From contig JAOEIQ010000005.1 in the NCBI GenBank assembly GCA_026162565.1, forward strand, positions 258,624-297,133: a stretch of 38,510 bases of DNA. Direction: 5' to 3'. Of this stretch, positions 23,958 through 38,510 are shown piece after piece. This DNA is from Flavobacteriaceae bacterium NBU2973. GTDB lineage: Bacteria; Bacteroidota; Bacteroidia; Flavobacteriales; Flavobacteriaceae. Within the stretch, counting starts at the first letter, position 1. Each line of letters begins with the position of its first letter. Both the position numbers and the translations under genes were made by a program. The notes under the pieces are model-generated. The model was not told the origin of the DNA. It searched no databases and saw only the letters and a program-made list of their open reading frames with translations.

Positions 23958-25025
23958 TTATAAGTTATCTAACGGGCTTTTAATTTTTGACATACTTCTA
24001 GGTGTTACTTTGGTATAAACTTGAGTGGTTTTAATAGAGTTATGCCCAAGCAACTCTTGAATAAAACGCATATCAGCTCCAGACTCTAAAAGATGTGTTG
24101 CATAACTATGACGCAAGCCATGAATACCTATTTGCTTTTTAATTCCAGCTTTACCCATAGCCTTTTTAAATACCTGCTGTAAACTAGATTTCGCATAAGC
24201 ACCTCCATATTGTCCTTCTAATAAAAATACTTTGGGTTTGTAGATAATATAATACTCTCTTAACAGTGGTAAAATACTATTAGGTAATGGCACGTATCTA
24301 TCTTTTTTTCCTTTTGCCCCTTGAATATGTACTACCATACGCTTACTATCTATATCCCTAATTTTTAGAGCAACCACTTCAGATACTCTTAATCCCATTC
24401 CGTAGGATAATTTGAGTGCCAGTTCATGCTTTTTATTATCAGTTACTCTAAACAATTTTTTTACTTCGGTTTTGCTCAACATCTTGGGTAAGGTCAATGG
24501 CTTTTTAGGTCTAGGAATATCAAAAAACATTTTAGGTCTATGTAAAACCTGCTCAAAGAAAAACTTGATAGCATTTATCTTACCATTCATTTTACGTTCA
24601 CCCATTTTTTCTTCTTTAATACAATACAAAAAATAATCTTTAAGACGTTTGGGTGTTAAATCGCCTACATAAAAATCATCTAGCAAATTAAGTAAGTGTT
24701 TAAACTCTGCAAGATAAATACGTTTGGTGCTATCGCTATATTTTTTAAGTTCTAGTTGCTTATCTAAATCTAAATAGGCTTTTTGATTTGTTGGGTGAAT
24801 GGTTAGTAGTTTTTCTGCAACAGTATTTTTGGTATTGAGATTTAGTTCTCTTCTAATTACTGGTAAATCTGGTAAGTACCACGCTTTTTTTGTAGCACTC
24901 CATTTGGCAGAGGGAAAGCGTTTACGTAAATCGTTTATTAAATTTGTATTGTACGGAAATTTAATTACTATTACATTTTTTTTATTATGTACAGCACTTT
25001 GATAGGTATATTTTTTAAAATCCAT
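23958..25025 (-). CDS. Tyrosine recombinase of the cassette array
   Basis: A 355-residue DNA strand-exchange enzyme. Residues 1-65 form an extra N-terminal domain (FPSAKWSATKKAWYLP is its most distinctive part). Residues 85-165 are the SAM-like core-binding domain and 180-345 the catalytic domain, with R213 (GMGLRVSEV), a lysine in QGAKGKKDR (about 238), H302 and R305 (GIHGLRHSYATHLL), H328 (LLGHNSIKTTQ) and nucleophile Y337 (VYTKV). The end, KIKSPLDNL, resembles the SPLD ending seen in IntI and many Bacteroidota integrases. Only about 50 residues separate the K patch from GLRH, so the IntI-specific insertion is absent. The start is the ATG at 25025; the frame extends to 25088, but that extension runs into the inverted repeat. 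It is divergent from the first cassette, as intI is. Confidence 0.93.
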   Translation of the reverse strand: MDFKKYTYQSAVHNKKNVIVIKFPYNTNLINDLRKRFPSAKWSATKKAWYLPDLPVIRRELNLNTKNTVAEKLLTIHPTNQKAYLDLDKQLELKKYSDSTKRIYLAEFKHLLNLLDDFYVGDLTPKRLKDYFLYCIKEEKMGERKMNGKINAIKFFFEQVLHRPKMFFDIPRPKKPLTLPKMLSKTEVKKLFRVTDNKKHELALKLSYGMGLRVSEVVALKIRDIDSKRMVVHIQGAKGKKDRYVPLPNSILPLLREYYIIYKPKVFLLEGQYGGAYAKSSLQQVFKKAMGKAGIKKQIGIHGLRHSYATHLLESGADMRFIQELLGHNSIKTTQVYTKVTPRSMSKIKSPLDNL

Positions 25026-25031
25026 ACAGAC

Positions 25032-25079
25032 ATTTTGTATAACATTCGAGTAAAAATAATAAAAAATGTTATACAAAAT
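25032..25079. promoter_or_regulatory. 15-bp perfect inverted repeat in front of the recombinase gene (possible integrase/operator site)
   Basis: ATTTTGTATAACATT (25032-25046) and AATGTTATACAAAAT (25065-25079) are perfect complements with an 18-nt AT-rich spacer, starting 7 bp upstream of the recombinase ATG. The internal GTATAAC/GTTATAC is the same pair that forms the inner arms of four cassette sites (30116, 30908, 31729, 37568). It could be a recombinase-binding site, an autoregulatory operator, or both. Confidence 0.6.
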
Positions 25080-25135
25080 ACATGACATAAAACTATCTTT
25101 AAAAGCTTATGAATAAAAGGTGACCAAATAATTAG

Positions 25136-25185
25136 TATATTTATAAAAAATACGTAAAACACAGACATATATAAGTGTTGTGCTT
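25136..25185 (+). other. attI-like insertion site and leader of the first cassette
   Basis: The first crossover core, GTTGTGCTT (25177-25185), is not preceded by an attC-like site but by about 90 bp of AT-rich sequence reaching the recombinase leader, which is where attI lies in integrons. TATATTTA (25136-25143) is one base from a -7 promoter box and could drive the array. The crossover core is well supported by pairing with 25927-25935; the promoter is a weak guess. Confidence 0.5.
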
Positions 25186-25191
25186 CATTAA

Positions 25192-25923
25192 ATGAAAATG
25201 GAAACTATCATTGAAAAATATAATAATCTTCAAAAGGAAATTTTGAGTGATTTCTCATTAAAATGGGACGGAGAAAATTGCGAAACAACTTTCAGAAATG
25301 ATGTTAAAGATTTTTATGGATTTGAAAAAAAGTTTGGATGGAATATTTTATTAAATGCGTTCTATGTAATTGACGACACCGAACTTGCTAAAAAGTCTTT
25401 TAAAGAATTTGATTTACAAGGACCTTCAAGGCACAGAGATGTTGGAGAAAGATACTTAAGATTATATGGACTTTTAAATGCAACTTATCAGCAAAAATTA
25501 GCTGTAGAAAACTTACTAGAAATACATAAAGTAGAAAAAAAGAAAGAGTTTAAAAAAAAGTTAATTGAATCTGAACTAATCATTATCCGAAATAAAATTG
25601 GAGCTCATTCAGCAAACTTTTTATCAACTAGAGACGATTCTGAACACAAATTTGACGTTTATGAAATTTCAAGACCTGAATTAGAACGTGGAAAAATACG
25701 ACTCTTAAGAAATCAGAACGATTTTGAAAATTATGACCTTGAAAAAGCAATAAAAGAATTTAACGAATTAGTTGAAGAAATTTTATCAATTGTAATCGGA
25801 AAAGTAATTAAGAAAATATTTAAAAATCAAGGAAAGCATTTTAAGGAATATCAAACGATAAATGAAATCAGAAATGGAGCGATACTTGTGAATGGAAATC
25901 TGATTAATTTTATAACTAAATAA
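25192..25923 (+). CDS. Cassette 1: helical protein with HEPN-like RNKIGAH motif
   Basis: A 243-residue, mostly alpha-helical cytoplasmic protein that I cannot place in a named family. The segment LIIIRNKIGAHSANF (about residues 130-144) has R-N-x4-H, the R-polar-x(4-6)-H motif of HEPN ribonucleases, which often act in defence and toxin systems. A Glu/Lys-rich helix before it and a further helical half after it (EKAIKEFNELVEEILSIVI) fit a HEPN four-helix layout. It fills cassette 1: the ATG is 15 nt after the GTTG core and the stop 3 nt before the right arm. The next ATG (25198) is also possible. The HEPN call is motif-based only. Confidence 0.75.
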   Translation: MKMETIIEKYNNLQKEILSDFSLKWDGENCETTFRNDVKDFYGFEKKFGWNILLNAFYVIDDTELAKKSFKEFDLQGPSRHRDVGERYLRLYGLLNATYQQKLAVENLLEIHKVEKKKEFKKKLIESELIIIRNKIGAHSANFLSTRDDSEHKFDVYEISRPELERGKIRLLRNQNDFENYDLEKAIKEFNELVEEILSIVIGKVIKKIFKNQGKHFKEYQTINEIRNGAILVNGNLINFITK

Positions 25924-25926
25924 CGA

Positions 25927-26056
25927 AAGCACAACAATGGCTATAAGTAATTGCTTATTCTCGCCTACTTCTGAAAATCCTCGCGGATTTTCAGTTTGGT
26001 GTGTGCTTGCAAAGTTAAGTGCTAAACCACGCAACTACTCATAGCCGAGACCGTTG
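25927..26056 (+). repeat. attC-like site 1 (GGCTATA family)
   Basis: Order: R'' arm AAGCACAAC (complement of GTTGTGCTT at 25177), spacer aat, L'' GGCTATAAGTAATTGC, an internal hairpin GAAAATCC-tcgc-GGATTTTC, L' GCAACTACTCATAGCC, spacer gagac, core CCGTTG. The L arms differ only where a top-strand A faces C (T-G on the bottom strand). It is nearly identical to the site at 33985-34115. Confidence 0.85.
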
Positions 26057-26086
26057 TAAGTAATGCGGAAATCGTGCTGAAATTGA

Positions 26087-26190
26087 ACATTTGAACTAAA
26101 AAAGCCAACGCTCAAACAGCACATTTATTTTTTTGCCGACACGAAAGCCAACGCTAAAAAAAATAAAAGAGCTGTTTCTTGCCAACGCTC
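26087..26190 (+). repeat. GCCAACGCT stem-loop repeat block, left of the RM gene
   Basis: Begins with ACATTTGAACTAAA, then three GCCAACGCT copies (26104, 26147, 26181) around a hairpin with arms AAACAGC / GCTGTTT and a T-run / A-run inner stem. The same design occurs after the RM gene at 29236-29322. This fills the otherwise gene-less stretch between attC-like site 1 and 26229. Confidence 0.75.
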
Positions 26191-26228
26191 GGAATAATAT
26201 TAAATTTGAGAAAAAAGATTAAAATTTT

Positions 26229-29200
26229 ATGAGCTTATTTCAGAACTCTGTTCTAAACAAATATTTAAAAGGATTAGAGTCCGAAAAAGTTACTCAAGCA
26301 TACGAGCGATTTACAAGTCATTTCCACAATCCAACCATTCAAGAAAATATACGAAACTCGAAAGAGGAACAATATCAAGGCGAATTTCTGATTGACCTTT
26401 TTGTGAATGTTTTAGGCTACACGAAAAATCCAACACCTGAATTTAATCTCACAACGGAATTAAAAAATATAAAAGGCTCTAAAAAGACAGATGGTGCAAT
26501 TCTAAAAGGCGAAAAAGCACTTGCAGTAATTGAGCTAAAAGGAACAAACACAACCGATTTAAGCAAAGTAGAAACGCAAGCATTTGGATATAAAAACAAC
26601 CAACCAGGTTGTAATTATGTCATTACTTCCAACTTTGAAAAGTTGCGTTTTTACATTGACAACGCAGTTGACTTTGAGGAATTTAATTTATTTCAACTTT
26701 CAAAAGAACGTTTCGACATTCTTTGGCTTTGTTTGTCATCAGAATATCTTTTAAAAGATATTCCGAAAAAGATAAAAGACGAATCTTTAACGCAAGAGGA
26801 AAACGTCACCAAAAAATTATACAAAGATTACGCTTCGTTTAGGAACGAAATTTTTGATGCAATTCAAAAAGAAAACCCTGAATACGACAAATTAACGTTA
26901 TTCAAGAAAACACAGAAATTACTCGACCGTTTTCTATTTATCTTTTTTGCAGAAGATAGATTATTATTGCCACCAAACTCAATTCGTTCCATCGTTAACC
27001 AATGGACTGATTTACGAGATAAATATGACGAGTATTTTCCTTTGTACGACCGATTTAAAAAATATTTCGGTTATATGAACACAGGACACAAAGGACAACA
27101 ACACGATATTTTTGCCTATAATGGTGGACTTTTTGCACCAGATGAAATTTTGGACAATATCAAAATCAATGACGATTTACTGCATAAACACACGATAAAT
27201 TTAAGTAACTACGATTTCGAGAGTGAAGTAAGCGTAAACATTCTTGGACACATTTTTGAACATTCGTTAAACGACATTGACGAAATCCAAGCAGAAATAC
27301 AAGGAGTTGCGTCCGAACAAAGCAAAACCAAGCGTAAAAAAGACGGTGTTTTTTACACGCCAAAATATATTACCAAATACATTGTAGATAATACAGTTGG
27401 CAAACTTTGCGAGGAAAAGAAAACCGAACTCGATATACAAGAATCCGAATACGAAAAAGAACGTAAAGGAAGACAGAAAGCAACCTTAAAAAAGCTAACT
27501 CAAAAATTAGAGGATTACAGAAAATGGTTATTGCAAATTACCATTTGCGACCCAGCTTGTGGAAGTGGTGCTTTTTTAAACCAAGCGTTAGAATTTCTTA
27601 TTGCAGAACATCAATACATTGACGAGTTGCAAGCTAAATTGTTTGGAGATGCAATGGTATTGAGCGAAGTTGAAAACGCCATTTTAGAAAACAATATTTA
27701 CGGAGTTGATATCAATGAAGAAAGTGTTGAAATTGCTAAACTTTCACTTTGGTTAAGAACTGCACAAAAAGGCAGAAAGCTAACCTCGTTAAACAACAAT
27801 ATAAAATGTGGTAACAGTTTAATTGACGAGACAACTGTTGCAGGAGATAAAGCCTTTAATTGGCAAAACGAATTTCCAGAAGTTTTTGCAAAAGGTGGTT
27901 TTGATGTAATTATTGGAAATCCACCTTATGTTTTCACTAGAGGTAATGAACATTTTCAAAACTTTAATGATTATATATGGACAAATTACAATCATAATAG
28001 CGGAAAAATTAATCTATATAGTGTCTTTTTAGAACTTTCCACAGACAAACTTTTAAAGGCCAACGGCTTTCTAGGTTTTATTACACCAGAAACATTTATT
28101 AGAACCAGTACTTATGGAGAAATCAGGAGATACCTTATAAACCAATTACTTATTCAAAGTATCAGTATATACGGAATTGGTGTATTTGATAATGTTACAG
28201 CAGAAACAATAACATTAATCGTAAGAAAAAGTTTTGATGCGCAAAACATTGTAAATTTCTACAAGCATCAAAGCATTCAAATTTTTGAAAAATATTCAGA
28301 AAATCAAGATGGTTTTAACGAAACACCTGAAAATAGATTTCTCTATGGAAGCTCAAATTTAGATAGGAACATATTTAAGAAAATGCGTAAAAACAATCCG
28401 CTTTTAGGAAGTTTTATAGACGTTAGAAATGGTATTGCAACAAAATCAGGTAAAAATAATTACATCTCTAATCAGAAATTAACAGAGAAATACAAAAAAT
28501 TACTAGAAGCACCTGACTTATTCAGATATGGATTTATTTGGCCAAATGCTTATATCAATTATGACAAAGAAGTATTACATCGTCCAAGAAAAGAAGAAAC
28601 GTTTCTTTCTGATAAAATATTGATACAGAGAGTTTCTTCTAGGTTAATTTGTTCATTTGATGATGAGAAATATTATACGTTTAATTCAGTAAACAATCTT
28701 GTACTTAAGGAAGATAACTACAATTTAAAATTTTTGTTAGGCATTCTTAATTCAAGACTAATTGACCATTTTTATAGAAGAAATTATTCACTTGATGCTA
28801 GTTATACAATTACTGTAACAAAAACGAATCTTGACTCTATTCCTGTTCCAAAATGGAAAAACTCTGATGTTCAGCAGAAAATTATTTCAAATGTTGATTT
28901 CATTATCAAAGAAAACAAGAATATAGTTCAACGTAGTTTGTCTTTCCAAAAGCTTCTTAAAAATAAATATTCACTTGAAAAGCTTTCGAAAAAAGTACAA
29001 AGTTGGTATCAATATGACTTTGGAACGCTTTTGAAAGAACTTAAAAAATATAAAATTCAGTTAAGCCTAAAGGAAGAAGCTGAATGGATGGAATATTTCA
29101 CTAATGAACAAGCAGAAATTAAAGCATTAATAAGTGAAATTGAAAATAGAGACAATGAAATTGACAAAATCGTTTATGAATTATACGGATTGACAGAAGA

Positions 29201-29234
29201 AGAAATAAACATTGTGGAAGAAGCCACTGCATAA
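26229..29234 (+). CDS. Cassette 2: fused restriction-modification enzyme (type IIG / Eco57I-like)
   Basis: A 1001-residue single-chain enzyme. The N-terminal nuclease domain has a PD-(D/E)xK-like signature, with D88 in KKTDGAIL and E102-x-K104 in AVIELKG. A helical connector precedes the N6-adenine methyltransferase domain, with SAM motif I DPACGSGAFL (441-450), GVDINEESVEIAKLSLWL and catalytic NPPY (564-567). The C-terminal half (about 620-960) resembles TaqI/Eco57I-type target recognition (LLGILNSRLIDHFYRR, IPVPKW). One protein would therefore both methylate and cut DNA, protecting the host while restricting incoming phage. No partner R or S gene is present. The gene is much larger than a usual integron cassette and is bracketed inside the cassette by GCCAACGCT repeat blocks. 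Confidence 0.93.
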   Translation: MSLFQNSVLNKYLKGLESEKVTQAYERFTSHFHNPTIQENIRNSKEEQYQGEFLIDLFVNVLGYTKNPTPEFNLTTELKNIKGSKKTDGAILKGEKALAVIELKGTNTTDLSKVETQAFGYKNNQPGCNYVITSNFEKLRFYIDNAVDFEEFNLFQLSKERFDILWLCLSSEYLLKDIPKKIKDESLTQEENVTKKLYKDYASFRNEIFDAIQKENPEYDKLTLFKKTQKLLDRFLFIFFAEDRLLLPPNSIRSIVNQWTDLRDKYDEYFPLYDRFKKYFGYMNTGHKGQQHDIFAYNGGLFAPDEILDNIKINDDLLHKHTINLSNYDFESEVSVNILGHIFEHSLNDIDEIQAEIQGVASEQSKTKRKKDGVFYTPKYITKYIVDNTVGKLCEEKKTELDIQESEYEKERKGRQKATLKKLTQKLEDYRKWLLQITICDPACGSGAFLNQALEFLIAEHQYIDELQAKLFGDAMVLSEVENAILENNIYGVDINEESVEIAKLSLWLRTAQKGRKLTSLNNNIKCGNSLIDETTVAGDKAFNWQNEFPEVFAKGGFDVIIGNPPYVFTRGNEHFQNFNDYIWTNYNHNSGKINLYSVFLELSTDKLLKANGFLGFITPETFIRTSTYGEIRRYLINQLLIQSISIYGIGVFDNVTAETITLIVRKSFDAQNIVNFYKHQSIQIFEKYSENQDGFNETPENRFLYGSSNLDRNIFKKMRKNNPLLGSFIDVRNGIATKSGKNNYISNQKLTEKYKKLLEAPDLFRYGFIWPNAYINYDKEVLHRPRKEETFLSDKILIQRVSSRLICSFDDEKYYTFNSVNNLVLKEDNYNLKFLLGILNSRLIDHFYRRNYSLDASYTITVTKTNLDSIPVPKWKNSDVQQKIISNVDFIIKENKNIVQRSLSFQKLLKNKYSLEKLSKKVQSWYQYDFGTLLKELKKYKIQLSLKEEAEWMEYFTNEQAEIKALISEIENRDNEIDKIVYELYGLTEEEINIVEEATA

Positions 29235-29235
29235 G

Positions 29236-29322
29236 CCATACACATTTGCAATTCGCTAAAGCCAACGCTACGCCAAAAATTGCAAAAGAGTATGTCTTGC
29301 CAACGCTCACATTTGAACTAAA
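29236..29322 (+). repeat. GCCAACGCT stem-loop repeat block, right of the RM gene
   Basis: CATAC / GTATG and TTTGCAATT / AATTGCAAA form a hairpin whose loop contains AAAGCCAACGCT (29258-29269); TCTTGCCAACGCTC follows and then ACATTTGAACTAAA (29309-29322), the same 14 bp that begins the left block at 26087. The arms differ in sequence from the left block but pair in the same way. Confidence 0.75.
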
Positions 29323-29361
29323 TAACAAACATCGGAAAACCAAGCAGAACGTGAAAAGCAC

Positions 29362-29557
29362 TACTTACAACAACGTGTATAAAACATAGCTATTATAGCC
29401 TTTACGAGAGGTTTTTGTATATTTACAAAGTACGCCAAATTTTTTATTTGGTTATATTTATAAAGAAATTTAAACATAAAAATAAAAAATTCGGCTCGTG
29501 TTAAATCCGAAAAATTAGCGACTATTTATACGCTACGTTTCATACACAAGACCGTTG
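29362..29557 (+). repeat. attC-like site 2 (GTGTATA variant, 196 bp)
   Basis: R'' arm TACTTACAAC (complement of GTTGTAAGTA at 26053), spacer aac, L'' GTGTATAAAACATAGC, a long AT-rich middle, L' GCTACGTTTCATACAC, spacer aagac, core CGTTG. Both stem mismatches are top-strand A facing C. It is longer and less repeated in this window than the other sites. Confidence 0.75.
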
Positions 29558-29570
29558 CCATTAATACGAA

Positions 29571-30107
29571 ATGACTATAAACTATCAACTTACAAATTCG
29601 GATTTTTTAGAATATCAGCTATATACTTCTTCAAAATCTGAATTACATAAAAAGAGACGATTTCGCTCTCGAATAATAATTCCGATAATCTACTTGATAC
29701 TCGGACTATTCTTCTCAAACCAAAGCGGAAAATTCGGAATTGGAATTGCATTCGTAGTATTTGGAATTTTATGGTTTATATTCTATCCATTGTATTCTAA
29801 ATGGAGATACAAAAACCATTTTAAAAAACACGTTGAGGAAAACTATAAAAATCGGATTAACAAACCTGTGGAAATTGACTTTGACGAAAATTCTGTGAAT
29901 GCCAAAGATTTTACGTCTGAAAGTAGAATAAATGGAACTGAACTCAAGGAACTGATAGAAACTAAAGACCATTTCTTTATAAAACTAACAACTGACTTAT
30001 CCCTGATTGTACCAAAACACTCAATTGAAAATCAATCGGAATTTAAAATGCGAGTGACTGAATTAGGAGCGGAATATGTTGATGAACTGAATTGGAAATG
30101 GAAATAA
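29571..30107 (+). CDS. Cassette 3: YcxB-like membrane protein
   Basis: A 178-residue protein with two adjacent membrane helices (about residues 34-50 and 54-74), a basic loop (RYKNHFKKHVEENYKNR) and a C-terminal soluble domain with the YcxB-like pattern: VEIDFDENSVNAKDFTSESRINGTELKELIETKDHFFIKL, then LIVPKHSIENQSE. The family's role is unknown, and members are frequent in mobile and accessory DNA. The ATG is 17 nt after the GTTG core and the stop 8 nt before the right arm, so cassette 3 has no room for a promoter of its own. Confidence 0.8.
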   Translation: MTINYQLTNSDFLEYQLYTSSKSELHKKRRFRSRIIIPIIYLILGLFFSNQSGKFGIGIAFVVFGILWFIFYPLYSKWRYKNHFKKHVEENYKNRINKPVEIDFDENSVNAKDFTSESRINGTELKELIETKDHFFIKLTTDLSLIVPKHSIENQSEFKMRVTELGAEYVDELNWKWK

Positions 30108-30115
30108 AAAGTACT

Positions 30116-30247
30116 AATGGCAACAATGTATAACCGCAATTACGGCGGATTCGACTACGTCCGAATCCACTCGGAATTGCTAAAGTCTGTGCCAAACTGA
30201 AAATTAACGCATATTAACCCGTAACTGACGGTTATACTAGAACGTTA
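30116..30247 (+). repeat. attC-like site 3 (GTATAACCG family)
   Basis: R'' TAATGGCAAC (complement of GTTGCCATTA at 29554), spacer aat, L'' GTATAACCGCAATTAC, internal hairpin GGATTCG / CGAATCC, L' GTAACTGACGGTTATAC, core GTTA (start of cassette 4). The L' arm has one extra unpaired base after CCG and one top-strand A-C mismatch. Confidence 0.85.
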
Positions 30248-30268
30248 CCCAACATTTGACCAAAAAAC

Positions 30269-30898
30269 GTGAAAAAGAAAAATTGGATTTTATTATTCGT
30301 GCTAAACTTAATAGTTCTTCTTCTCGGAATTTTGCCTTTTCTTCCAGGACCAAAATTTCTTGAATTTGCAAACTCAATTTATTCTTTGCTACAAATCGGA
30401 GCTATATTCGGACTGATTTTAATCCCATTAGCAGTTATTTCAATAGGAATCGGAATTTTTAAGAAAAGCTTTAATAATTCAACCAAATACTACGCATTAC
30501 TCTGCTTGACTTTACCATTAACTTTGTTAACTTCAGTTTATTGGATTTCCAATCACGCTCGTGATTTTAGCAGGAATTATGCAATTGAACAATCCGAAAA
30601 TTTAATTTCAGCAATCGAAAACTATAAAATGGAAAATCAAAACTATCCTGACTCGATTGAACAACTTACACCTCGATACATAAAAAAGATTCCAAGCGAC
30701 AGAATAATCGGAATAAGTGGTTTTCATTACTCTAAAGATTCGACCGAATATAAAATTGAGTTTTCACAAAACGTGATTTTAGGATTTAACTTCGAGATAG
30801 TCCAATACTCGCCGAATGGAAAGCACAAATCCGAGGGTGAATTGACAAAACTTTATGATACTAAACATCCGAAATGGAAATATTATATCTACGATTGA
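30269..30898 (+). CDS. Cassette 4: membrane protein with pilin-like (GspG-type) tail
   Basis: A 209-residue protein from a GTG start (no ATG is available in frame). It has three hydrophobic segments (about residues 6-25, 38-63 and 76-94), then a soluble tail. In the tail, AIEQSENLISAIENYKMENQNYPDSIEQLTPRYIKKIP follows the pattern of type II secretion pseudopilin heads (AIExYxxxxgxYPxxxxxLxPxYlxxxP), here attached to a multi-pass membrane domain. Function is unknown. The cassette core is GTTACCCAAC and its right arm GTTGGGTAAC, the GTTA variant. Confidence 0.72.
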   Translation: MKKKNWILLFVLNLIVLLLGILPFLPGPKFLEFANSIYSLLQIGAIFGLILIPLAVISIGIGIFKKSFNNSTKYYALLCLTLPLTLLTSVYWISNHARDFSRNYAIEQSENLISAIENYKMENQNYPDSIEQLTPRYIKKIPSDRIIGISGFHYSKDSTEYKIEFSQNVILGFNFEIVQYSPNGKHKSEGELTKLYDTKHPKWKYYIYD

Positions 30899-30907
30899 TT
30901 AAAAAAC

Positions 30908-31040
30908 GTTGGGTAACAATGTATAACCGCAATTACGGCGGATTCGACTACGTCCGAATCCACGCGGAATTGCTAAAATCAGTACTTAACCGAAAATCAT
31001 TAACTTTAATCCCGTAACTGACGGTTATACTAAACCGTTG
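30908..31040 (+). repeat. attC-like site 4 (GTATAACCG family)
   Basis: R'' GTTGGGTAAC (complement of GTTACCCAAC at 30244), spacer aat, L'' GTATAACCGCAATTAC, the same internal GGATTCG hairpin, L' GTAACTGACGGTTATAC, spacer taaac, core CGTTG. Confidence 0.85.
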
Positions 31041-31723: not shown

Positions 31724-31728
31724 AATAC

Positions 31729-31861
31729 TGTTGGCAACAATGTATAACCGCAATTACGGCGGATTCGACTACGTCCGAATCCACTCGGAATTGCTAAAGT
31801 CTGTGCTAAACCGAAAATTAACGCATATTAACCCGTAACTGACGGTTATACGAGACCGTTG
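31729..31861 (+). repeat. attC-like site 5 (GTATAACCG family)
   Basis: R'' TGTTGGCAAC (complement of GTTGCCAACA at 31037), spacer aat, L'' GTATAACCGCAATTAC, GGATTCG hairpin, L' GTAACTGACGGTTATAC, spacer gagac, core CGTTG. Confidence 0.85.
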
Positions 31862-31890
31862 TGGTTAATGTCCATAAACCGAGAAAGTGA

Positions 31891-32685
31891 ATGAATAAAA
31901 CGATATTTGAGATTACCAAAATGGATTGTCCTTCCGAGGAAAATCTAATCCGAATGAAATTGGACGGAATCTCAAGTATAGCGAATTTGGACTTTGACAT
32001 TCCCAACCGAAAACTGACTGTTTTTCACAGCGGACAAATCGACCAAATTGAAAAGTCAGTTCTAGAACTGAATTTAGGCGGAAAGAAAATCTCGACCGAA
32101 CAAACCGACCAAACTGAATTTAAAGAAAACGCAAACCAGAAAAAACTACTCTGGACTGTACTCGGAATAAATTTCGCATTTTTCCTAATTGAAATGACAA
32201 CTGGAATAATCTCAAAATCAATGGGATTGGTTGCTGATAGTTTGGATATGCTTGCCGACAGTTTCGTTTACGGAATTAGCTTGTTTGCGGTTGGAGGAAC
32301 TCTAACAAGAAAAAAACGGATTGCAAAACTTGCTGGTTATTTTCAAATAACACTTGCGATTATTGGATTTGTGGAAGTATTGAGAAGATTTTTCGGAGCC
32401 GAGAAACTTCCCGATTTCTTAACAATGATTATCGTTTCCATTTTTGCACTTATTGCAAACGGAATTTGTCTTTATATTTTGCAAAAGTCAAAGAGCAAAG
32501 AAGAAGCTCATATGAAAGCGAGTATGATTTTCACCTCGAACGATGTGATTATCAATTTGGGAGTGATTGTTGCAGGAGTTTTAGTAAATTGGTTGAGTTC
32601 AAGCAAACCTGATTTGATTATTGGAACAATCGTTTTCGTTTTGGTAATTCAAGGAGCATTTAGAATATTAAAATTGAGTAAATAA
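31891..32685 (+). CDS. Cassette 6: cation-diffusion-facilitator-like transporter with HMA-like N-terminus
   Basis: A 264-residue inner-membrane protein. Residues 1-65 have the beta-alpha-beta outline of a heavy-metal-associated domain (FEITKMDCPSEENLIRMKLDGI), but with one cysteine where CxxC is usual. From about residue 88 five or six helices follow the CDF pattern: the first helix pair ends in GLVADSLDMLADSFVYG, where CDF metal sites are built from D/H-x3-D, and a later helix has TSNDVIINLGVIVAG (D-x3 site). It probably exports a divalent metal using the proton gradient; the metal is unknown. There is no C-terminal cytoplasmic CDF domain. Single gene of cassette 6. Confidence 0.85.
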   Translation: MNKTIFEITKMDCPSEENLIRMKLDGISSIANLDFDIPNRKLTVFHSGQIDQIEKSVLELNLGGKKISTEQTDQTEFKENANQKKLLWTVLGINFAFFLIEMTTGIISKSMGLVADSLDMLADSFVYGISLFAVGGTLTRKKRIAKLAGYFQITLAIIGFVEVLRRFFGAEKLPDFLTMIIVSIFALIANGICLYILQKSKSKEEAHMKASMIFTSNDVIINLGVIVAGVLVNWLSSSKPDLIIGTIVFVLVIQGAFRILKLSK

Positions 32686-32697
32686 ATAAAAAAACAC

Positions 32698-32859
32698 TAA
32701 CCACAACATCGGCTATAGTTCATTACGGCTGAAATTCCTACTCGGAATTTCAAGCCTTTTTGCTAAATTTATGGTTTGCTACCGCCAGTTCGCTACGCTC
32801 GTGTCGGCGGAATGATACTTGTGTACCATTCCGTAACGAAACCATAGCCAAAACCGATG
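32698..32859 (+). repeat. attC-like site 6 (GGCTATA family), ends in a GATG core
   Basis: R'' TAACCACAAC (complement of GTTGTGGTTA at 31858), spacer atc, L'' GGCTATAGTTCATTACG, a middle hairpin GAAATTCC / GGAATTTC and a GC-richer stretch (CGCCAGTTCGCTACGCTCGT), L' CGTAACGAAACCATAGCC, spacer aaaac, core CGATG instead of CGTTG. Confidence 0.8.
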
Positions 32860-32943
32860 ATGTACAATTCACCTAAAGGTGAACTCAAATTGCTACATCT
32901 CGCTATCGCTCGATTCCCGCCCTTTGAGAAATGTACATCATCG
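32855..32943 (+). other. Cassette 7: apparent gene-less mini-cassette
   Basis: A 12-bp perfect pair CGATGATGTACA (32855-32866) and TGTACATCATCG (32932-32943) frames only 65 bp, which holds the hairpin TTCACCT-aa-AGGTGAA (32868-32883) and no credible ORF. The gene-less stretch 32686-33158 consists of site 6, this mini-cassette and site 7. It may encode a structured RNA or be a decayed cassette. Confidence 0.6.
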
Positions 32944-33138
32944 CTGGGCTATGCCAGTTTGCATATGCAGTAGGCATTTGGTACACTGCTATAAATCACC
33001 TTTAGGCGCCATCGAGGAAAACGGTACATATCAACGGCTATATGCAACCTGTCCACGTTTAATATGTATTTTTAAAGTTAATGCAATAAATTGCTTAACT
33101 TTAAAATCCATAACGTGGCTTCACATAGCCCAGCGTTG
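32932..33138 (+). repeat. attC-like site 7 (GGGCTATG variant, 207 bp, extra palindromes)
   Basis: R'' TGTACATCATC, spacer, L'' GCTGGGCTATG (32943-32953) pairing perfectly with L' CATAGCCCAGC (33124-33134), core GTTG at 33135. The middle holds a long interrupted palindrome at 33053-33118 (CCACGTT ... AACGTGG outer, TTTAAAGTTAA / TTAACTTTAAA inner) and a segment CACCTTTAGGCG complementary to the hairpin of mini-cassette 7 except for one base. Confidence 0.7.
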
Positions 33139-33158
33139 TGGTGCATTAAATAAAACTT

Positions 33159-33983
33159 ATGAAAACAATTAGAATATTTTCAATTTTGATTATAATCATC
33201 TTCCTGATATCTTGTCAAGATTCTAAAAAAGAGGAAAAAAATGTGAGTGGCACGGTTGAAGACATATATGTTGAGAAAGACACATTAGGCGGAATATGGA
33301 ATCTACATAAAGTAAATGACACGCTCTTTGACATAACTAAAATGTACGGATTTGACGCAGATAATCCAACCTTGAAAATTGAAGTTTTCAAAAATCACAT
33401 TTCTGGATTTTCAGGGTGCAACGGTTATGAAGCAAATGTTAAAATTGACTCGACCAAAATCACATTGACAGATGGAATTTTAGCCACAGAAATTGGATGT
33501 GGTGGTAATATTTGGGAAAATGATTATTTCTCAAGATTGGGCGATATTAATTCATATAAAATAACAAAAGATACACTGAAATTAGAAAATTCTAATAATA
33601 AGTCAATGACTTTTTTAAGACGTCATTTGCACAAACTTGAACTTAACAGTTGGGAACTGACTAAAGTAAATGATACATTTTTTGATATTAAGAAAGAATA
33701 TGGCAATGAGAATGAGCCACAACCTATCATAACGTTCAATTTCGAGAAAAACACTATTGGTGGTTGGAATGGTTGCAATAGCTTTGGTATGGAAATAGAA
33801 TTTAAAGGAGATTATTACAACAGTGGAGCTTACAATTCAGATGCAAGAGGTTGTTATAAGGGTTGGTTAGAAAAATTCAACGGAATATTAGCTGACAATA
33901 AAAGCTATCGAATTGATAATGGAATTTTAACATTAACAAATTCATCTGGTAAAACATTATCCTTTAAAAAATTGAAAGAATAA
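33159..33983 (+). CDS. Cassette 8: lipoprotein with two META/HslJ-like domains
   Basis: A 274-residue lipoprotein (lipobox LISC, C19). It contains two copies of the META fold seen in HslJ: GGIWNLHKVNDTLFDITKMYG... with ISGFSGCNGYEA and ATEIGCGG, then NSWELTKVNDTFFDIKKEYG... with IGGWNGCNSFG and DARGCYKGW. Each copy keeps the characteristic W-x-L opening, the GCN turn and a later cysteine, so each may hold a disulfide. Such proteins sit in the envelope and are linked to heat-shock or antibiotic tolerance in other bacteria; the role here is unknown. The stop codon abuts the right arm of the cassette. Confidence 0.88.
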   Translation: MKTIRIFSILIIIIFLISCQDSKKEEKNVSGTVEDIYVEKDTLGGIWNLHKVNDTLFDITKMYGFDADNPTLKIEVFKNHISGFSGCNGYEANVKIDSTKITLTDGILATEIGCGGNIWENDYFSRLGDINSYKITKDTLKLENSNNKSMTFLRRHLHKLELNSWELTKVNDTFFDIKKEYGNENEPQPIITFNFEKNTIGGWNGCNSFGMEIEFKGDYYNSGAYNSDARGCYKGWLEKFNGILADNKSYRIDNGILTLTNSSGKTLSFKKLKE

Positions 33984-33984
33984 C

Positions 33985-34115
33985 GCACCACAACAATGGC
34001 TATAAGTAATTGCTTGTTCTCGCCTACTTCTGAAAATCCTCGCGGATTTTCAGCTTGGTGTGTACTTGCAAAGTTAAGTGCTAAACCACACAACTACTCA
34101 TAGCCGAGACCGTTG
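33985..34115 (+). repeat. attC-like site 8 (GGCTATA family)
   Basis: R'' GCACCACAAC (complement of GTTGTGGTGC at 33135), spacer aat, L'' GGCTATAAGTAATTGC, GAAAATCC-tcgc-GGATTTTC hairpin, L' ACAACTACTCATAGCC, spacer gagac, core CGTTG. Only a few bases differ from site 1, although it follows a different gene 8 kb away. Confidence 0.85.
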
Positions 34116-34139
34116 TAGCACATTAGACAAACCAAACGA

Positions 34140-35117
34140 ATGACAGATGATTTCAAAGAATTTCCGAGCTATTCAGAGTGCAAAAAATTTGTAGAAAAAT
34201 TAAAAAAAGCAGAATGGCCCAAATTTGATGAGAGTGAGAACATTGATGATTATATTTCAAAAGTTCAACAGATTTTATTTCAGGACTTTGAAATTTTACC
34301 TGATATTCTAAAAAGATTTAAACCAAAAGAGTTTACTCTGCCAATATTCAGAGCTCGTGAATTAAAAGATTTCAAGAATATTAATTTATTTTCGGAACAT
34401 AGTTATCCACCAGCAAATTTTGTTGGATTTAACCGATGTAATTTTCCCAAAAGCCCAGTTTTCTATTGCTCGGATAATCCACTAACAGCATTAACTGAAG
34501 TAATTCGTAACAGCGACCATAAAGAAAGGAAATTTTGTGTCTCAAAATGGGAATTAATAGATGTGGAACAAGAATTTGTTTTTCAAACTTTCTTACATAG
34601 TGAATTAGATGACGAGAATATATTCGGTTTTTTAAAAGAAGCTGAACTGGAGCAATTAGACCAACCTTTTGAAAATAAATTAGGGGAAGATAAAAAAGCA
34701 GGACTTGCTGAATTTCTTAAATTTTTGCATAGTTCTTTTATAAAAGACAATAATTATTCTTTGTCTGCTAGTTTAGCACATCGAACATTAAATGCAAAAC
34801 ATAGTTTAGCGACTGATATTTTAATGTATCCAAGCGTTCAAACAAAATACAAAGGTGTGAATATGGCAATTCATCCAAATTTTGTTGACAATATGATGAG
34901 AGTTCAAAGGTTTTATATTGTAGAACTTGAAAACTATAATATTGATACAGGTAAATTCGATATTACGATTTCAAAATATGCGGATTTAGTAAAAAATAGA
35001 ATTTTTTGGAGAGATATTAAACCAGAAGATGAACTGTATAAAGAGTATTTAATGAAAGACTTTAAACATATAATGGAACAAGGATTTACTTGGAAGTTTA
35101 ACGAAATAAAAAAATAA
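34140..35117 (+). CDS. Cassette 9: RES-domain-like protein
   Basis: A 325-residue cytoplasmic protein. The stretch from about residue 75 to 270 has the outline of a RES domain: PIFRARELKDFKNI, YPPANFVGFNRCNFPKSPVFYCSDNPLTALTEVI (arginine, tyrosine and glutamate in the expected order) and later LMYPSVQTKYKGVNMAIHPNFVDNMM. RES proteins are usually NAD-degrading toxins of RES-Xre modules. No Xre-type antitoxin gene lies next to it, and the protein is longer than typical RES toxins because of an N-terminal helix region of about 70 residues, so it may be a RES relative with another role. Single gene of cassette 9. Confidence 0.7.
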   Translation: MTDDFKEFPSYSECKKFVEKLKKAEWPKFDESENIDDYISKVQQILFQDFEILPDILKRFKPKEFTLPIFRARELKDFKNINLFSEHSYPPANFVGFNRCNFPKSPVFYCSDNPLTALTEVIRNSDHKERKFCVSKWELIDVEQEFVFQTFLHSELDDENIFGFLKEAELEQLDQPFENKLGEDKKAGLAEFLKFLHSSFIKDNNYSLSASLAHRTLNAKHSLATDILMYPSVQTKYKGVNMAIHPNFVDNMMRVQRFYIVELENYNIDTGKFDITISKYADLVKNRIFWRDIKPEDELYKEYLMKDFKHIMEQGFTWKFNEIKK

Positions 35118-35118
35118 C

Positions 35119-35249
35119 GTGCTACAACAACGTATAAAATTAATTGCTAGTGTAAGCCTACTTACGAAAATCCTCGCGGATTTTCTATTCGGTTTGTATT
35201 TGCTAAATTAGTTGCTTAAACACGTAACTAATCTTATACAAAGCCGTTG
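35119..35249 (+). repeat. attC-like site 9 (GTATAAA variant)
   Basis: R'' GTGCTACAAC (complement of GTTGTAGCAC at 34112), spacer aac, L'' GTATAAAATTAATTGC, GAAAATCC-tcgc-GGATTTTC hairpin as in site 1, L' GTAACTAATCTTATAC, spacer aaagc, core CGTTG. Confidence 0.82.
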
Positions 35250-35278
35250 CCCACAATTAATGCCAATCAAAAACGAAT

Positions 35279-36232
35279 ATGGAAATTGAGGAATTAAGAA
35301 AACAATGTAAACGCTTTTTTTGGTGTGAATCGATTCCTGTTTGTCAAGAGTTATTGGATATTTATGCAAATTTTTTCTTTGAAGCAGTAATTCACCACAA
35401 CTATGACCAAGTAAAAACTCAAGCTGATGCCGATGCAAAAATGGTTTTTCAAATGATGATGACTAAAGTCCTTCACTTGAAAAATGTTTTGAATGGTGTT
35501 GATTTTACTTCTAAAAATGGCAAATCACTTAATAACATTATTGACCCAACAATAGTTGCTTCTTTGATACGGAACATTTATGAAACAACTGGAATGTTCA
35601 ACCTCATATATCAGGAATCAAAAACAGAGGAGGAAAAACAAATTAAATATTTGCTTTGGGTACACGCTGGACTTTCCTATCGAAATAGATTTGACGGAGT
35701 AATTACACTTAAAGAGAATAAGAACAAAATGGAAAACGAGCTGAAACAAATGGAATCAATACGCTCGGAAATTGAACAAAGTTCACTCTTCAAAAGTATG
35801 GATAACAAAAATCAAGGAAAAATTAGAACAATGATTAAAAAGAAAGACTATCTAATAAAATTCAATGGGAATGAGGTAGTTTTTTTAAGCTGGAGAGAAC
35901 TTGTTCAATCAATGGACATTAAAGGAGATAAGCTGAATCAGATTTACACATATTTTTCACTTTATGCTCATCCTTCGAATGTCGCAGTTTTTCAATTTGC
36001 CAATATGTTTGGAAAAAAAGATACCGCATATAAAGATATTGTCATTTTCAACTTACAAACAGCATTTATGATGTTGAGTATTTTTATTGCAGACTACATC
36101 AAAACTTTTCCAGAGGTATTGAAAACATATGAAAAAATGGGCCTTGTGGAACAAATTGTTATCAACTTTCACAATAGAATAGCCAGAGGTGGAAATTATG
36201 ACATTAACGAATCCTGGAAAGCCACAGGATGA
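35279..36232 (+). CDS. Cassette 10: helical cytoplasmic protein, unknown (DUF5677-like)
   Basis: A 317-residue, mainly helical protein without signal peptide. Features include WRELVQSMDIKGDKLNQIYTYFSLYAHPSNVAVFQFAN (about 205-245), whose YxxxSxYAHPS pattern resembles DUF5677/HEPN-like proteins where a conserved His-Pro follows a helix. A coiled, charged segment (KMENELKQMESIRSEIEQ) lies at about 150-170, and the C-terminal helix FNLQTAFMMLSIFIADYIKTF is hydrophobic. I cannot assign a function. Single gene of cassette 10, with the ATG 30 nt after the core and the stop 8 nt before the right arm. Confidence 0.75.
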   Translation: MEIEELRKQCKRFFWCESIPVCQELLDIYANFFFEAVIHHNYDQVKTQADADAKMVFQMMMTKVLHLKNVLNGVDFTSKNGKSLNNIIDPTIVASLIRNIYETTGMFNLIYQESKTEEEKQIKYLLWVHAGLSYRNRFDGVITLKENKNKMENELKQMESIRSEIEQSSLFKSMDNKNQGKIRTMIKKKDYLIKFNGNEVVFLSWRELVQSMDIKGDKLNQIYTYFSLYAHPSNVAVFQFANMFGKKDTAYKDIVIFNLQTAFMMLSIFIADYIKTFPEVLKTYEKMGLVEQIVINFHNRIARGGNYDINESWKATG

Positions 36233-36240
36233 AAAATAAC

Positions 36241-36373
36241 TGTGGGCAACATTGGCTATAATTCATTGCGGTTGAATTCCTAATCGGAATTCAACGCAAG
36301 TTTGCTATCTTTCGGCTACGGCGGAAAGAATCCTGCGGATTTTTCCGCAACGAAATCATAGCCGAGACCGTTG
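36241..36373 (+). repeat. attC-like site 10 (GGCTATA family)
   Basis: R'' TGTGGGCAAC (complement of GTTGCCCACA at 35246), spacer att, L'' GGCTATAATTCATTGCGG, internal hairpins (GTTGAATTCC / GGAATTCAAC and others), L' CCGCAACGAAATCATAGCC, spacer gagac, core CGTTG. One extra base lies in the L' arm. Confidence 0.85.
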
Positions 36374-36386
36374 GCACCAATGCGAA

Positions 36387-36908
36387 ATGACAGACGCAAC
36401 TGAAACATATTTTGAAATAAAAGATGGAACAGATTTCATTCGAATTGAAGTTCTGAAACAAAATTTTCCTGAAGGAGATTTTGACTGGGATCGAAATTCA
36501 TTGAATTGCGATGTCTCGGTTAAGTGCGGAGCATTTTCAGGAGAATTTAATGCGGATTTAATGTCTTGGGATTTCGATATTTTCAAAACGGAACTGGAAT
36601 ATCTCTACGAAAACCTTAATCGAAGAGCAATTTTTGAGGGAATTGAAAGTCAGGTTACAATTCTTGTCCAAGGAGACGGAATTGGACACTTAAATACAAC
36701 ATGCCGAATAATGGATTATGCAGGAACTGGAAATGAATTGAATTGTGAACTTGACTTTGACCAAACACAATTGCCTGAAATCATCGGACAATTGGAAAAA
36801 ATAATGTCGGAATACAAAGTTTACGGAAGAATAAATGAAAAAAGCACAGGTGCCAACAATGGCTATAATTCATTGTGGCAGAGAGTTAAATCAAAGTTTA
36901 ATTTATAA
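36387..36908 (+). CDS. Cassette 11: WapI-immunity-like protein, reads into its attC-like site
   Basis: A 173-residue soluble protein. The pattern FEIKDGTDFIRIEVLKQNFPEG, GAFSGEFNADLMSWDFDIFKTELEYLYENL and VTILVQGDGIGHLNTTCRIMD... resembles the WapI-family immunity/DUF group, small proteins that neutralise contact-dependent toxins or are found as orphans in accessory DNA. The last 20 or so codons (STGANNGYNSLWQRVKSKFNL) lie within the attC-like site: the right cassette arm GGTGCCAAC is translated as Gly-Ala-Asn. The native stop has been lost or never existed, and the site supplies a short basic tail. The ATG is 17 nt after the core. Confidence 0.8.
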   Translation: MTDATETYFEIKDGTDFIRIEVLKQNFPEGDFDWDRNSLNCDVSVKCGAFSGEFNADLMSWDFDIFKTELEYLYENLNRRAIFEGIESQVTILVQGDGIGHLNTTCRIMDYAGTGNELNCELDFDQTQLPEIIGQLEKIMSEYKVYGRINEKSTGANNGYNSLWQRVKSKFNL

Positions 36909-36979
36909 AACACGGCTGATTTCTACAGCGGAATAATCCTGCGGATGATTCCACAACGAAATCATAGCCGAGACCGTTG
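36849..36979 (+). repeat. attC-like site 11 (GGCTATA family), overlapping a coding region
   Basis: R'' GGTGCCAAC (complement of GTTGGCACC at 36370), spacer aat, L'' GGCTATAATTCATTGTGG, L' CCACAACGAAATCATAGCC, spacer gagac, core CGTTG. The first 60 bases are in frame with the cassette 11 gene, whose TAA is at 36906. Confidence 0.82.
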
Positions 36980-36994
36980 TGCACAAGCTGAAAA

Positions 36995-37561
36995 ATGAGA
37001 AATCCATTAAAAATATTGCTTCTGATTTTAACTTTAGTTTCTTGTAAAAACCAAACAGAAACGAAATCTGAATTGAAAAACGAGACGGCTGAATTACTTG
37101 AAGAAATTCCTCAAATGGAATTACAACAAACCGACTCAATAGCGGAACAGTGGAATTTTATGGTTTTTGAAAAAGGAGGTTGTTTAGGAGGAACACAATA
37201 TGTCACAGAAAAAAAGAGAGAAATTCCTACTATGGTTTTTAGCGAAACGGAATGGAAAAAATTTGCGAAAAATGATAAAACGGAGTTGACTGAATTTCTT
37301 ATCTCTAAACTTTCTGACACAACGAAAACGAAAGTCCATACTTGCCCATTTTTTGGAGCAACTAATGGAGAAATGGCTGTTTATTCGCTTCAGCATATTC
37401 ATAATATAAATTGGCTTGAATTTTCGGAATTTAAAGAATATAAAGACCGAGAATACGGAAATGCGACTGACCAACCTCAAATGTGGTTACAGAATATTTT
37501 AAAAAATCAAACTAAACGTAAAACGTTAGCGGAGTTATATCGGAACGAACTAAAAAAATAA
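36995..37561 (+). CDS. Cassette 12: lipoprotein of unknown function
   Basis: A 188-residue lipoprotein: MRNPLKILLLILTLVSC gives a lipobox with C17, followed by an acidic linker (ETKSELKNETAELLEEIP). A folded domain with two or three cysteines (KGGCLGGTQYVTEKK, KVHTCPFFGATNGEM) and a central segment SETEWKKFAKNDKTELTEFLISKL follows. It is envelope-located, and the fold is not recognised by eye. The ATG is 16 nt after the GTTG core at 36976, and the stop precedes the right arm GTGCACAAC by 6 nt. Confidence 0.78.
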   Translation: MRNPLKILLLILTLVSCKNQTETKSELKNETAELLEEIPQMELQQTDSIAEQWNFMVFEKGGCLGGTQYVTEKKREIPTMVFSETEWKKFAKNDKTELTEFLISKLSDTTKTKVHTCPFFGATNGEMAVYSLQHIHNINWLEFSEFKEYKDREYGNATDQPQMWLQNILKNQTKRKTLAELYRNELKK

Positions 37562-37567
37562 AAGCCA

Positions 37568-37700
37568 GTGCACAACAATGTATAACCGCAATTACGGCGG
37601 ATTCGACTACGTCCGAATCCACTCGGAATTGCTAACGCTAGTGAATAAAAGAAAATAATAACTAATTTAACCCGCAACTGACGGTTATACGAAACCGTTG
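37568..37700 (+). repeat. attC-like site 12 (GTATAACCG family)
   Basis: R'' GTGCACAAC (complement of GTTGTGCAC at 36976), spacer aat, L'' GTATAACCGCAATTACGG, GGATTCG / CGAATCC hairpin, L' CCCGCAACTGACGGTTATAC with one extra base, spacer gaaac, core CGTTG. Confidence 0.85.
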
Positions 37701-37715
37701 TAGCAAATACCCAAA

Positions 37716-38285
37716 ATGAACAGAATACATTTAAAAATTATAGTTTTTGGACTCTTACTTTTGACTTTTACGAATTGTAAAGCACAAACGGACGAAAAAG
37801 CAAATCCGAAAATTAATTCGGAAAATTATTATGAATATTATCAATCTGGCGGAACTAAACCGACAACGACTAATTGGTTGAGAAGACACGAAGCAGTCCC
37901 AATCATTATTGACGAATTGGAAAAACTCGGATTTGAAACAAAACAATATATACTTTATGAATTAGAAAACGGAGAACAGATTATTGTTGACGTTTATAAT
38001 CGTAAAAATGATTTAGGAATTGTATTCAATACTGGACATTACGTTCAAATTAAAAAAGAACAACGTGAAAATCGGACATACAAGCAAGATAAATTTAAAG
38101 TTTCTGGAAGCCTAGGAAAAAGAAAAGTTTATAATGACCTGCCAAAAAATATCATTGTTTTGCAAGAGACTTGGTATTGGTATCAATCCCAAAACAGTCC
38201 GAATGACAAACTCGTGAATAAAAAAACAGCGGAATCAATTCTGCGAGAAGATATCAGAAATAAAGTAGCGGAACTTGGGAAATAA
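37716..38285 (+). CDS. Cassette 13: lipoprotein of unknown function
   Basis: A 189-residue lipoprotein (LLTFTNC, C21), then a linker (KAQTDEKANPKINSENYYEYY) and an alpha/beta domain. TNWLRRHEAVPIIIDELEKLGFETKQYILYELENGEQIIVDVYNRKNDLGIVF is followed by a surface-like segment rich in Lys and Tyr (TYKQDKFKVSGSLGKRKVYND). It has no known family that I recognise. The ATG lies 16 nt after the core GTTGTAGCAA and the stop 6 nt before TTGCTACAAC. Confidence 0.78.
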   Translation: MNRIHLKIIVFGLLLLTFTNCKAQTDEKANPKINSENYYEYYQSGGTKPTTTNWLRRHEAVPIIIDELEKLGFETKQYILYELENGEQIIVDVYNRKNDLGIVFNTGHYVQIKKEQRENRTYKQDKFKVSGSLGKRKVYNDLPKNIIVLQETWYWYQSQNSPNDKLVNKKTAESILREDIRNKVAELGK

Positions 38286-38291
38286 AAGTAC

Positions 38292-38424
38292 TTGCTACAA
38301 CACCGGCTATAGTTCATTGCTTCTGACTTTCCTGTCGGAAAGTCCTCGCAAATTTGCTATCTTCGGTTTACGGCGGAAAATCCTCGCGGATTTTCACGCA
38401 ACGAAACCATAGCCAAACACGTTG
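38292..38424 (+). repeat. attC-like site 13 (GGCTATA family)
   Basis: R'' TTGCTACAAC (complement of GTTGTAGCAA at 37697), spacer acc, L'' GGCTATAGTTCATTGC, GAAAATCC-tcgc-GGATTTTC-type hairpin, L' GCAACGAAACCATAGCC, spacer aaacac, core GTTG at 38421. One extra base and two top-strand A-C mismatches lie in the stem. Confidence 0.85.
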
Positions 38425-38438
38425 TGGTTAATTTGAAA

Positions 38439-38510
38439 ATGAACAGTCTTTTAAAACAAATATCAGAGAAAGCAATTAAGTTAGCTGATTTTGAGTTTAC
38501 TCAAGAGCAG
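38439..38510 (+). CDS. Cassette 14: gene start, cut by the window end
   Basis: The first 24 codons (MNSLLKQISEKAIKLADFEF...) of a gene that begins 15 nt after the core GTTGTGGTTA. Position, orientation and spacing match the other cassette genes. Too little is visible to name a product; the start looks like a helical cytoplasmic protein. The core GTTGTGGTTA is identical to that of cassette 6, so its own right arm beyond the window should read TAACCACAAC. Confidence 0.65.
   Translation, partial: MNSLLKQISEKAIKLADFEFTQEQ

Follow-up and report, generated by a model that had tools for sequence, protein, structure and literature searches.

An integron-like gene cassette array beside a tyrosine recombinase without the IntI insertion in a flavobacterium

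Integrons are among the main known gene-capture devices, and surveys tie them to the integrase IntI and to canonical attC sites; the R boxes of attC follow the motif RYYYAAC/GTTRRRY, as also given in an earlier first-pass annotation. Here we describe a tyrosine recombinase gene and an adjoining array of gene cassettes in a 38,510-nucleotide (nt) stretch of contig JAOEIQ010000005.1 of Flavobacteriaceae bacterium NBU2973 (GCA_026162565.1); this whole stretch is referred to as the window. The locus very probably represents an integron-like platform parallel to classical integrons, although recombination itself is deduced here from sequence. Among the closest described systems, passages of Smyshlyaev 2021 set out an integron-like subgroup of tyrosine recombinases in which the IntI insertion is not fully conserved, and call this insertion essential for integron function (PMC8138268). 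The account of IntegronFinder 2.0 includes a complete integron within Bacteroidetes itself, in Salinibacter (PMC9024848). A literature search of open-licence papers found, among the papers listed, no recognisable description of arrays such as the one presented here; preprints and most subscription papers fell outside this search. The elements at the head of the locus are as follows.

23958-25025, minus strand: tyrosine recombinase, 355 amino acids (aa); R213, K238, H302, R305, H328 and Y337 kept
25032-25079, no strand assigned: inverted repeat with 15-nt arms (25032-25046 and 25065-25079), a short distance upstream of the start of the recombinase gene
25153-25179, plus strand: attI-like junction at the conserved end of the leader; G25177/T25178 is where cassettes are joined

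Cassettes, boundaries and hairpin sites

The recombinase gene is divergent from the leader, and the cassette array lies on the far side of the leader. The array begins at 25178 and, always in plus orientation, runs through 13 complete cassettes into a 14th; the window ends where contig C24 ends (the host genome comprises 3.05 Mb in 29 contigs), truncating the last unit. The first-pass annotation had proposed at least 14 cassettes in one orientation; the uniform orientation was borne out, while the 14th cassette is only partial. Every complete cassette terminates in a hairpin site, and 12/13 contain a single plausible gene, in keeping with the earlier description of one compact gene per cassette as typical.

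25178-26053, plus strand: cassette 1, 243-aa protein, no family
26054-29554, plus strand: cassette 2, type IIG restriction-modification protein, 1001 aa
29555-30244, plus strand: cassette 3, YcxB-like protein, 178 aa
30245-31037, plus strand: cassette 4, 209-aa membrane-like protein, no family above cut-off; starts GTTACCC
31038-31858, plus strand: cassette 5, TPR-repeat protein, 224 aa
31859-32856, plus strand: cassette 6, cation-efflux protein (264 aa), also present in other genera with these bounds
32857-33135, plus strand: cassette 7, 279-nt unit, no convincing gene; GATG core instead of GTTG
33136-34112, plus strand: cassette 8, META-domain protein, 274 aa
34113-35246, plus strand: cassette 9, RES-domain protein, 325 aa
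35247-36370, plus strand: cassette 10, DUF5677-like protein, 317 aa, just below the Pfam cut-off
36371-36976, plus strand: cassette 11, WapI-type immunity-like protein, 173 aa; open reading frame (ORF) ends within the site
36977-37697, plus strand: cassette 12, 188-aa protein, no Pfam family
37698-38421, plus strand: cassette 13, 189-aa protein, no family above cut-off
38422-38510, plus strand: cassette 14, truncated at the contig end

When ten cassette proteins were searched with Padloc, cassette 2 gave the sole match. The ORF of cassette 11 (36387-36908) extends about 55 nt into the hairpin site of its own cassette.

Cassettes begin at G/TT (the slash marks the boundary), except for cassette 7, which begins at G/AT, and the first approximately 14 nt of each cassette largely match its own end read as reverse complement, position 11 being a recurring exception. 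Over six variable bases, start and end of the same cassette matched at 69/78 positions (13 window cassettes), whereas 200,000 permutations averaged 26.6 and never exceeded 59, so chance is excluded; cassettes 4 and 7 were mis-registered in the permutation run, which lowered the score. Related genomes supplied 120 pairs of consecutive sites (3 further pairs were left out for spacing); in these, own starts and ends matched at 5.12/6 variable bases on average as compared to 1.99 for non-own combinations, and 20/120 pairs had an own match of at most 4. At position 11, the start had A in all 120 pairs, and the counterpart was G in 103. A match between own start and own end would be produced by a circle opened at G/TT, and not by a gene lying between two chance repeats.

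The 13 hairpin sites, each with the minus strand as the folded strand, are listed below with the support for each.

25932-26056, minus strand: hairpin site 1; fold, consensus, model match
29368-29557, minus strand: hairpin site 2; long form, weak model match
30121-30247, minus strand: hairpin site 3; fold, consensus, model match
30914-31040, minus strand: hairpin site 4; fold, consensus, model match
31735-31861, minus strand: hairpin site 5; fold, consensus, model match
32704-32859, minus strand: hairpin site 6; fold, consensus, model match
32939-33138, minus strand: hairpin site 7; site of the gene-less cassette, missed by the model
33991-34115, minus strand: hairpin site 8; fold, consensus, model match
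35125-35249, minus strand: hairpin site 9; fold, consensus, model match
36247-36373, minus strand: hairpin site 10; fold, consensus, model match
36854-36979, minus strand: hairpin site 11; fold, consensus, model match
37573-37700, minus strand: hairpin site 12; fold, consensus, model match
38298-38424, minus strand: hairpin site 13; fold, consensus, model match

From CAAC to GTT a typical site measures 121-124 nt, as compared to the length of about 130 bp given before; three sites are longer (about 152, 186 and 200 nt). A consensus hairpin of 23 pairs, with two-sided changes at 12 pairs, is shared by 11/13 sites, the much longer sites 2 and 7 being left out. Matches to the canonical R boxes (GTTRRRY/RYYYAAC) were found in 0/13 window sites, and among the 120 related pairs in 6 starts and 7 ends, with about 9% expected from the column make-up; the reported absence of the usual R boxes thus stands, while the accompanying GTTG followed by variable bases does not apply throughout, as one boundary reads GATG and one GTTA. 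A search of 22500-38510 against Rfam gave no match at E values of up to 1.

Joined as in a circle, all 13 window sites had a better predicted fold as the bottom strand. Elsewhere the bottom strand was predicted to fold better in 141/156 related sites (6/162 were left out for length), as compared to 142/300 random windows. In the 100/120 pairs with an own match of at least 5/6, bottom-only wobble pairs took up 104 of 1,100 outer-arm cells, 89 of them at position 11, and top-only wobbles numbered 0. In the stems, G.T pairs outnumbered A.C by 628 to 32 (150 rows) and by 295 to 15 (70 rows), counts that come from alignments fitted to the site model. This pattern speaks against messenger-RNA structure being what is selected, and suggests how the folded strand may be chosen. 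When the window folds were read by eye for the extrahelical R''-L'' bases and the unpaired central spacer of attC, most of them appeared to have a 3-nt bulge on the opposite arm.

Recombinase and leader

The recombinase most likely starts at 25025, the second methionine, rather than at the ORF-list start 25088, since most of the homologues listed have 355 aa. It matches the Pfam families Phage_integrase and SAM_4, and its best NCBIfam profile is TIGR02249 (integron integrase), with 195 bits against a curated cut-off of 265 and a match in two pieces. Alignment to the solved IntI 2a3v skips IntI residues 212-245, and the spacing from KG..R to HxLRH is 64 residues in 32/32 relatives and 106 in 27/27 IntI; the catalytic R, K, H, R, H and Y are invariant across 32 aligned proteins. 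In a tree of 105 proteins (taking in 27/30 IntI, 11/13 XerD, 10/12 XerC and 25/29 further relatives), 57 relatives, IntI and XerC/XerD each formed a clade of their own (support 98/85, 100/100 and 100/100, respectively), and the family clade and the IntI clade are neighbours if the root lies towards Xer. A stricter-filtered tree (10/30 IntI, 2/13 XerD, 7/12 XerC, 26/29 further relatives) gave the family clade a support of 92/69. The gap, the spacing and the separate clade agree with the earlier claim of a non-IntI recombinase that lacks the IntI insertion. Its predicted fold is nearest to the solved 2a3v IntI (mean predicted local distance difference test, pLDDT, 84; predicted template modelling score, pTM, 0.56), and the model plays a supporting role only. 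In this model, residues 1-60 form a small domain of beta-beta-alpha-beta-beta type that precedes the core-binding domain.

Across 27 leaders (the window and 26 others; L211 was too short), the leader end is conserved and then gives way to differing sequence; in 22/27 this end lies 147-152 bp away from the start codon. In 34/39 neighbourhoods, the sequence that best pairs with the arm of the first site lay 40-140 bp from the edge of the recombinase match, and in 34/39 it matched 9 or 10 of 10 bases. Contig C27 of the same genome carries a second leader, identical to that of the window at 151/165 bases up to G/TT, after which identity drops to 7/10 and 20/50, and this provides evidence that is free of motif-based boundary choice; the cassette that follows differs from that of the window, and its start matches its own end. 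On the recombinase side the match falls to 59/108 columns, with only a broken N-terminal stretch left. This part of C27 (L009:5600-6700) thus presents an attI-like leader with its own cassette array and no intact recombinase. A clear palindrome before the attI-like GTT, unlike the window site, was seen in seven loci of co-directional layout (L103, L104, L105, L112, L114, L117 and L137).

The inverted repeat at 25032-25079 is found at the same place in 20/27 orthologous leaders, with changes matched between its arms in relatives, and is possibly an operator. The promoter motif TAnnTTnG, used in the search for Pc, occurs 108-110 nt from the start codon in 13/28 leaders and is absent from the window leader. 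The SOS motif of Flavobacteriaceae, given as GGA-N5-TCC in the pertinent part of PMC8565304, was not found at 24801-25300.

Linkage to the recombinase and recurring cassettes

A site model (R1) built from 11 window sites gave 41 matches in the host genome (E <= 0.01) and detected sites in 62/99 related genomes, host included, a dozen of which, besides the host, carry at least 30 sites each. The recombinase was found at E <= 1e-40 in 53/99 genomes; both were present in 49, the recombinase only in 4, sites only in 13, and neither in 33 (Fisher p = 1.5e-11, uncorrected for relatedness). In other genomes, 39/59 recombinase neighbourhoods hold 162 sites (E <= 1e-3), and none has sites of mixed orientation; weaker R1 matches on the opposite strand fall mostly at the same places as the sites, as a hairpin is expected to match both strands. 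One locus, L150, has a single site on the opposite side of the recombinase gene. Two layouts occur: the divergent one of the window, and one with the recombinase upstream of and co-directional with the array. Among named genomes, 27 orthologues with 64-85% identity come from Wocania, Winogradskyella, Maribacter, Hyunsoonleella, Gaetbulibacter and others; site hits came from 16/27 of these loci and numbered 52, each one oriented divergently, and in the 11 loci without a hit the sequence available on the side of the array is <1.8 kb.

In a phylum sample of 296 genomes, sites were present in 54 (E <= 1e-5, strict filters) and the recombinase profile in 113 (E <= 1e-60; the weakest matches may be XerD). 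Integrons are already known from this phylum: TIGR02249 scored above its cut-off in 84 of the 296, and had no match at E <= 1e-50 in the 30 genomes of the sample that belong to the same family, host included. Candidate attC sites were found near the IntI genes of the phylum (almost none under a stricter filter), and their alignment was too poor for a model. The system appears, as far as genome searches can tell, to be common in Flavobacteriaceae and present elsewhere in Bacteroidota.

The cassettes themselves recur unevenly. Gene-part matches of at least 100 nt in related loci were found for cassettes 2 and 6 only (of 13 searched), and ten of the 13 had no match in the related loci compared. 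Cassette 7 occurs in 15 other places, in the host genome, Gaetbulibacter, Winogradskyella, Maribacter and others; the match starts within about 50 nt of the left edge in 13/15 (the preceding sites are themselves related), and reaches the right edge in 8/15, the rest being truncated at contig ends or stopping earlier. It stands directly at an attI-like junction twice. Several of its copies in the host genome are 97.7-100% alike and others 85-96%; some of the copies in this genome stand at contig ends. Promoter activity of gene-less cassettes is reported for Vibrio superintegrons (PMC11014356).

Cassette 6 DNA has matches in 67/199 family genomes, host included (E <= 1e-3; many partial or distant). 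Among 11 foreign loci, a site was present on both sides in 7, on one side in 3 and on neither in 1; in the 8 two-sided loci, that of the window included, the flanking 1.1 kb share no match >99 nt. One carrier, genome G034, has a recombinase of the co-directional layout with 43% identity. In another genome (G014), one cassette of 557-560 nt occurs thrice in one array (L125) with 96.8-99.8% identity.

A model made from the window sites, a check proposed at the outset, ties such sites to this recombinase family; this linkage, the same-edged units elsewhere and the changing cassettes at the leader contradict the fixed gene order, the lack of exact GTT-bounded insertions or deletions and the absent linkage that had been named as evidence against the proposal.

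Proposed mechanism, alternatives and comparison with classical integrons

The layout, the profile match, the tree, the R boxes and the linkage agree with the proposal of the first-pass annotation that an integron-like array here may be run by a non-IntI tyrosine recombinase. The enzyme encoded at 23958-25025 would capture and release single gene cassettes, cutting between G and TT, with the attI-like site beside its gene and the bottom-strand hairpin at the cassette end as recombination partners; the neighbouring recombinase would thus be the one that moves the cassettes. A free cassette would be a circle in which start and end meet, completing an outer arm of about 14 bp. Insertion would occur mainly into attI, repeated rounds would build the array, and cassettes near attI may be expressed from a promoter in the leader. 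Bottom-strand G.T wobbles, which are A.C mismatches on the top strand, may mark the strand used, a role that attC gives to extrahelical bases.

Several observations weigh against this interpretation. No site was found at E <= 1e-3 in the stretch examined for 20/59 recombinases; a contig end is no more than about 1.1 kb away from 15 of them, but not from L099, L102, L116, L132 and L155. Conversely, sites occur in 13/99 genomes in which the recombinase was not found at E <= 1e-40. When eleven of these and two further site-bearing genomes were searched with a profile, G041, G054 and G257 each proved to carry a family member that is truncated or split, and the remainder gave only fragments or proteins with XerC/XerD-like scores, so that either arrays can persist without the enzyme or another enzyme serves them. 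Genomes with sites in which no intact family recombinase was found include G059, G019 and G327. In addition, 15/156 related sites are predicted to fold better as the top strand, the boundaries in the 27-leader comparison were picked by motif, which inflates their conservation (some picks are wrong), and distant site types are under-counted by a model trained on this window.

That the array is an ordinary integron whose IntI and attC have merely diverged, a new member of the known class, is very unlikely in our judgement: TIGR02249 is the best profile, 2a3v is the best solved relative in both sequence and fold, and the layout is the same, yet the score stays below the curated cut-off, the insertion is absent (64 as compared to 106 residues), 57 recombinases form their own clade beside IntI, and canonical R boxes occur in 0/13 and 6/120 sites. 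We give equally little credence to a scheme in which another enzyme, e.g., host XerC/XerD, moves the cassettes and the neighbouring recombinase is incidental; the 13 genomes with sites and no recombinase at threshold, and the broken members, fragments or XerC/XerD-like scores from the eleven re-searched, would fit it, whereas what is seen across many genera, one-sided linkage and an attI-like junction whose distance from the gene hardly varies, would not.

Least credible of all is a reading without any recombination, in which the repeats would act behind genes as terminator or RNA structures. The repeats do lie directly behind each gene and fold strongly; however, the outer-arm wobbles (104 to 0) are consistent with folding of the non-coding strand, the start of a cassette matches the end of that cassette, same-edged units stand in unrelated surroundings, and Rfam has no match. 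A platform that once worked and is now a fossil in this genome is improbable, though less so than the other alternatives: the second leader copy has lost its recombinase gene except for a broken N-terminal stretch, but the window recombinase is an open frame with all catalytic residues, and near-identical copies of cassette 7 are present in the host genome. We thus favor an integron-like platform, and the array likely works like an integron.

On a broader scale, Bacteroidota probably harbor a second, separate lineage of integrons, with recombinases that are sister to IntI and either lost the IntI domain or lacked it from the start, its own attI and hairpin sites, strand choice by G.T wobble, two layouts, and a cassette pool shared across genera and distant recombinase subclades. 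If so, the IntI insertion would be dispensable for cassette recombination at folded hairpins, bacteria would collect and shuffle genes through a second kind of integron, a large cassette gene pool, including restriction-modification and immunity-like genes, would become readable as mobile, and a large gene-exchange network would lie outside present integron surveys. Standard integron searches would likely miss such arrays (for attC, judging from the R-box counts only).

With classical integrons the locus shares a recombinase beside an attachment site, cassettes in a single orientation, bottom-strand hairpin sites (predicted here), a likely cut at G/TT, R' and R'' of one cassette that are mutually complementary, many cassettes of unknown function, gene-less cassettes, and arrays without integrase. 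With XerC/XerD and XerA, the recombinase shares the tyrosine recombinase fold and the lack of an IntI-type insertion, while XerC and XerD form their own clade (100/100); XerA was compared by profile, Protein Data Bank sequence and fold only. The passages of Smyshlyaev 2021 on the integron-like subgroup mention no cassette arrays for insertion-less members (PMC8138268). The locus is not a member of the classical integron class because four defining features differ: the recombinase has no IntI insertion, scores below the TIGR02249 cut-off and falls outside the IntI clade, and the sites do not keep GTTRRRY/RYYYAAC. In many relatives the recombinase is, moreover, co-directional with the array. Strand bias in the window sites would be carried by wobble pairs, and their folds mostly appear to have a 3-nt one-sided bulge on the R' side, as compared to the extrahelical bases on the R''-L'' arm of attC; the outer arm of the window sites measures about 14 nt with one wobble, as compared to the 9-11 nt given for attC in the relevant part of PMC2727003.

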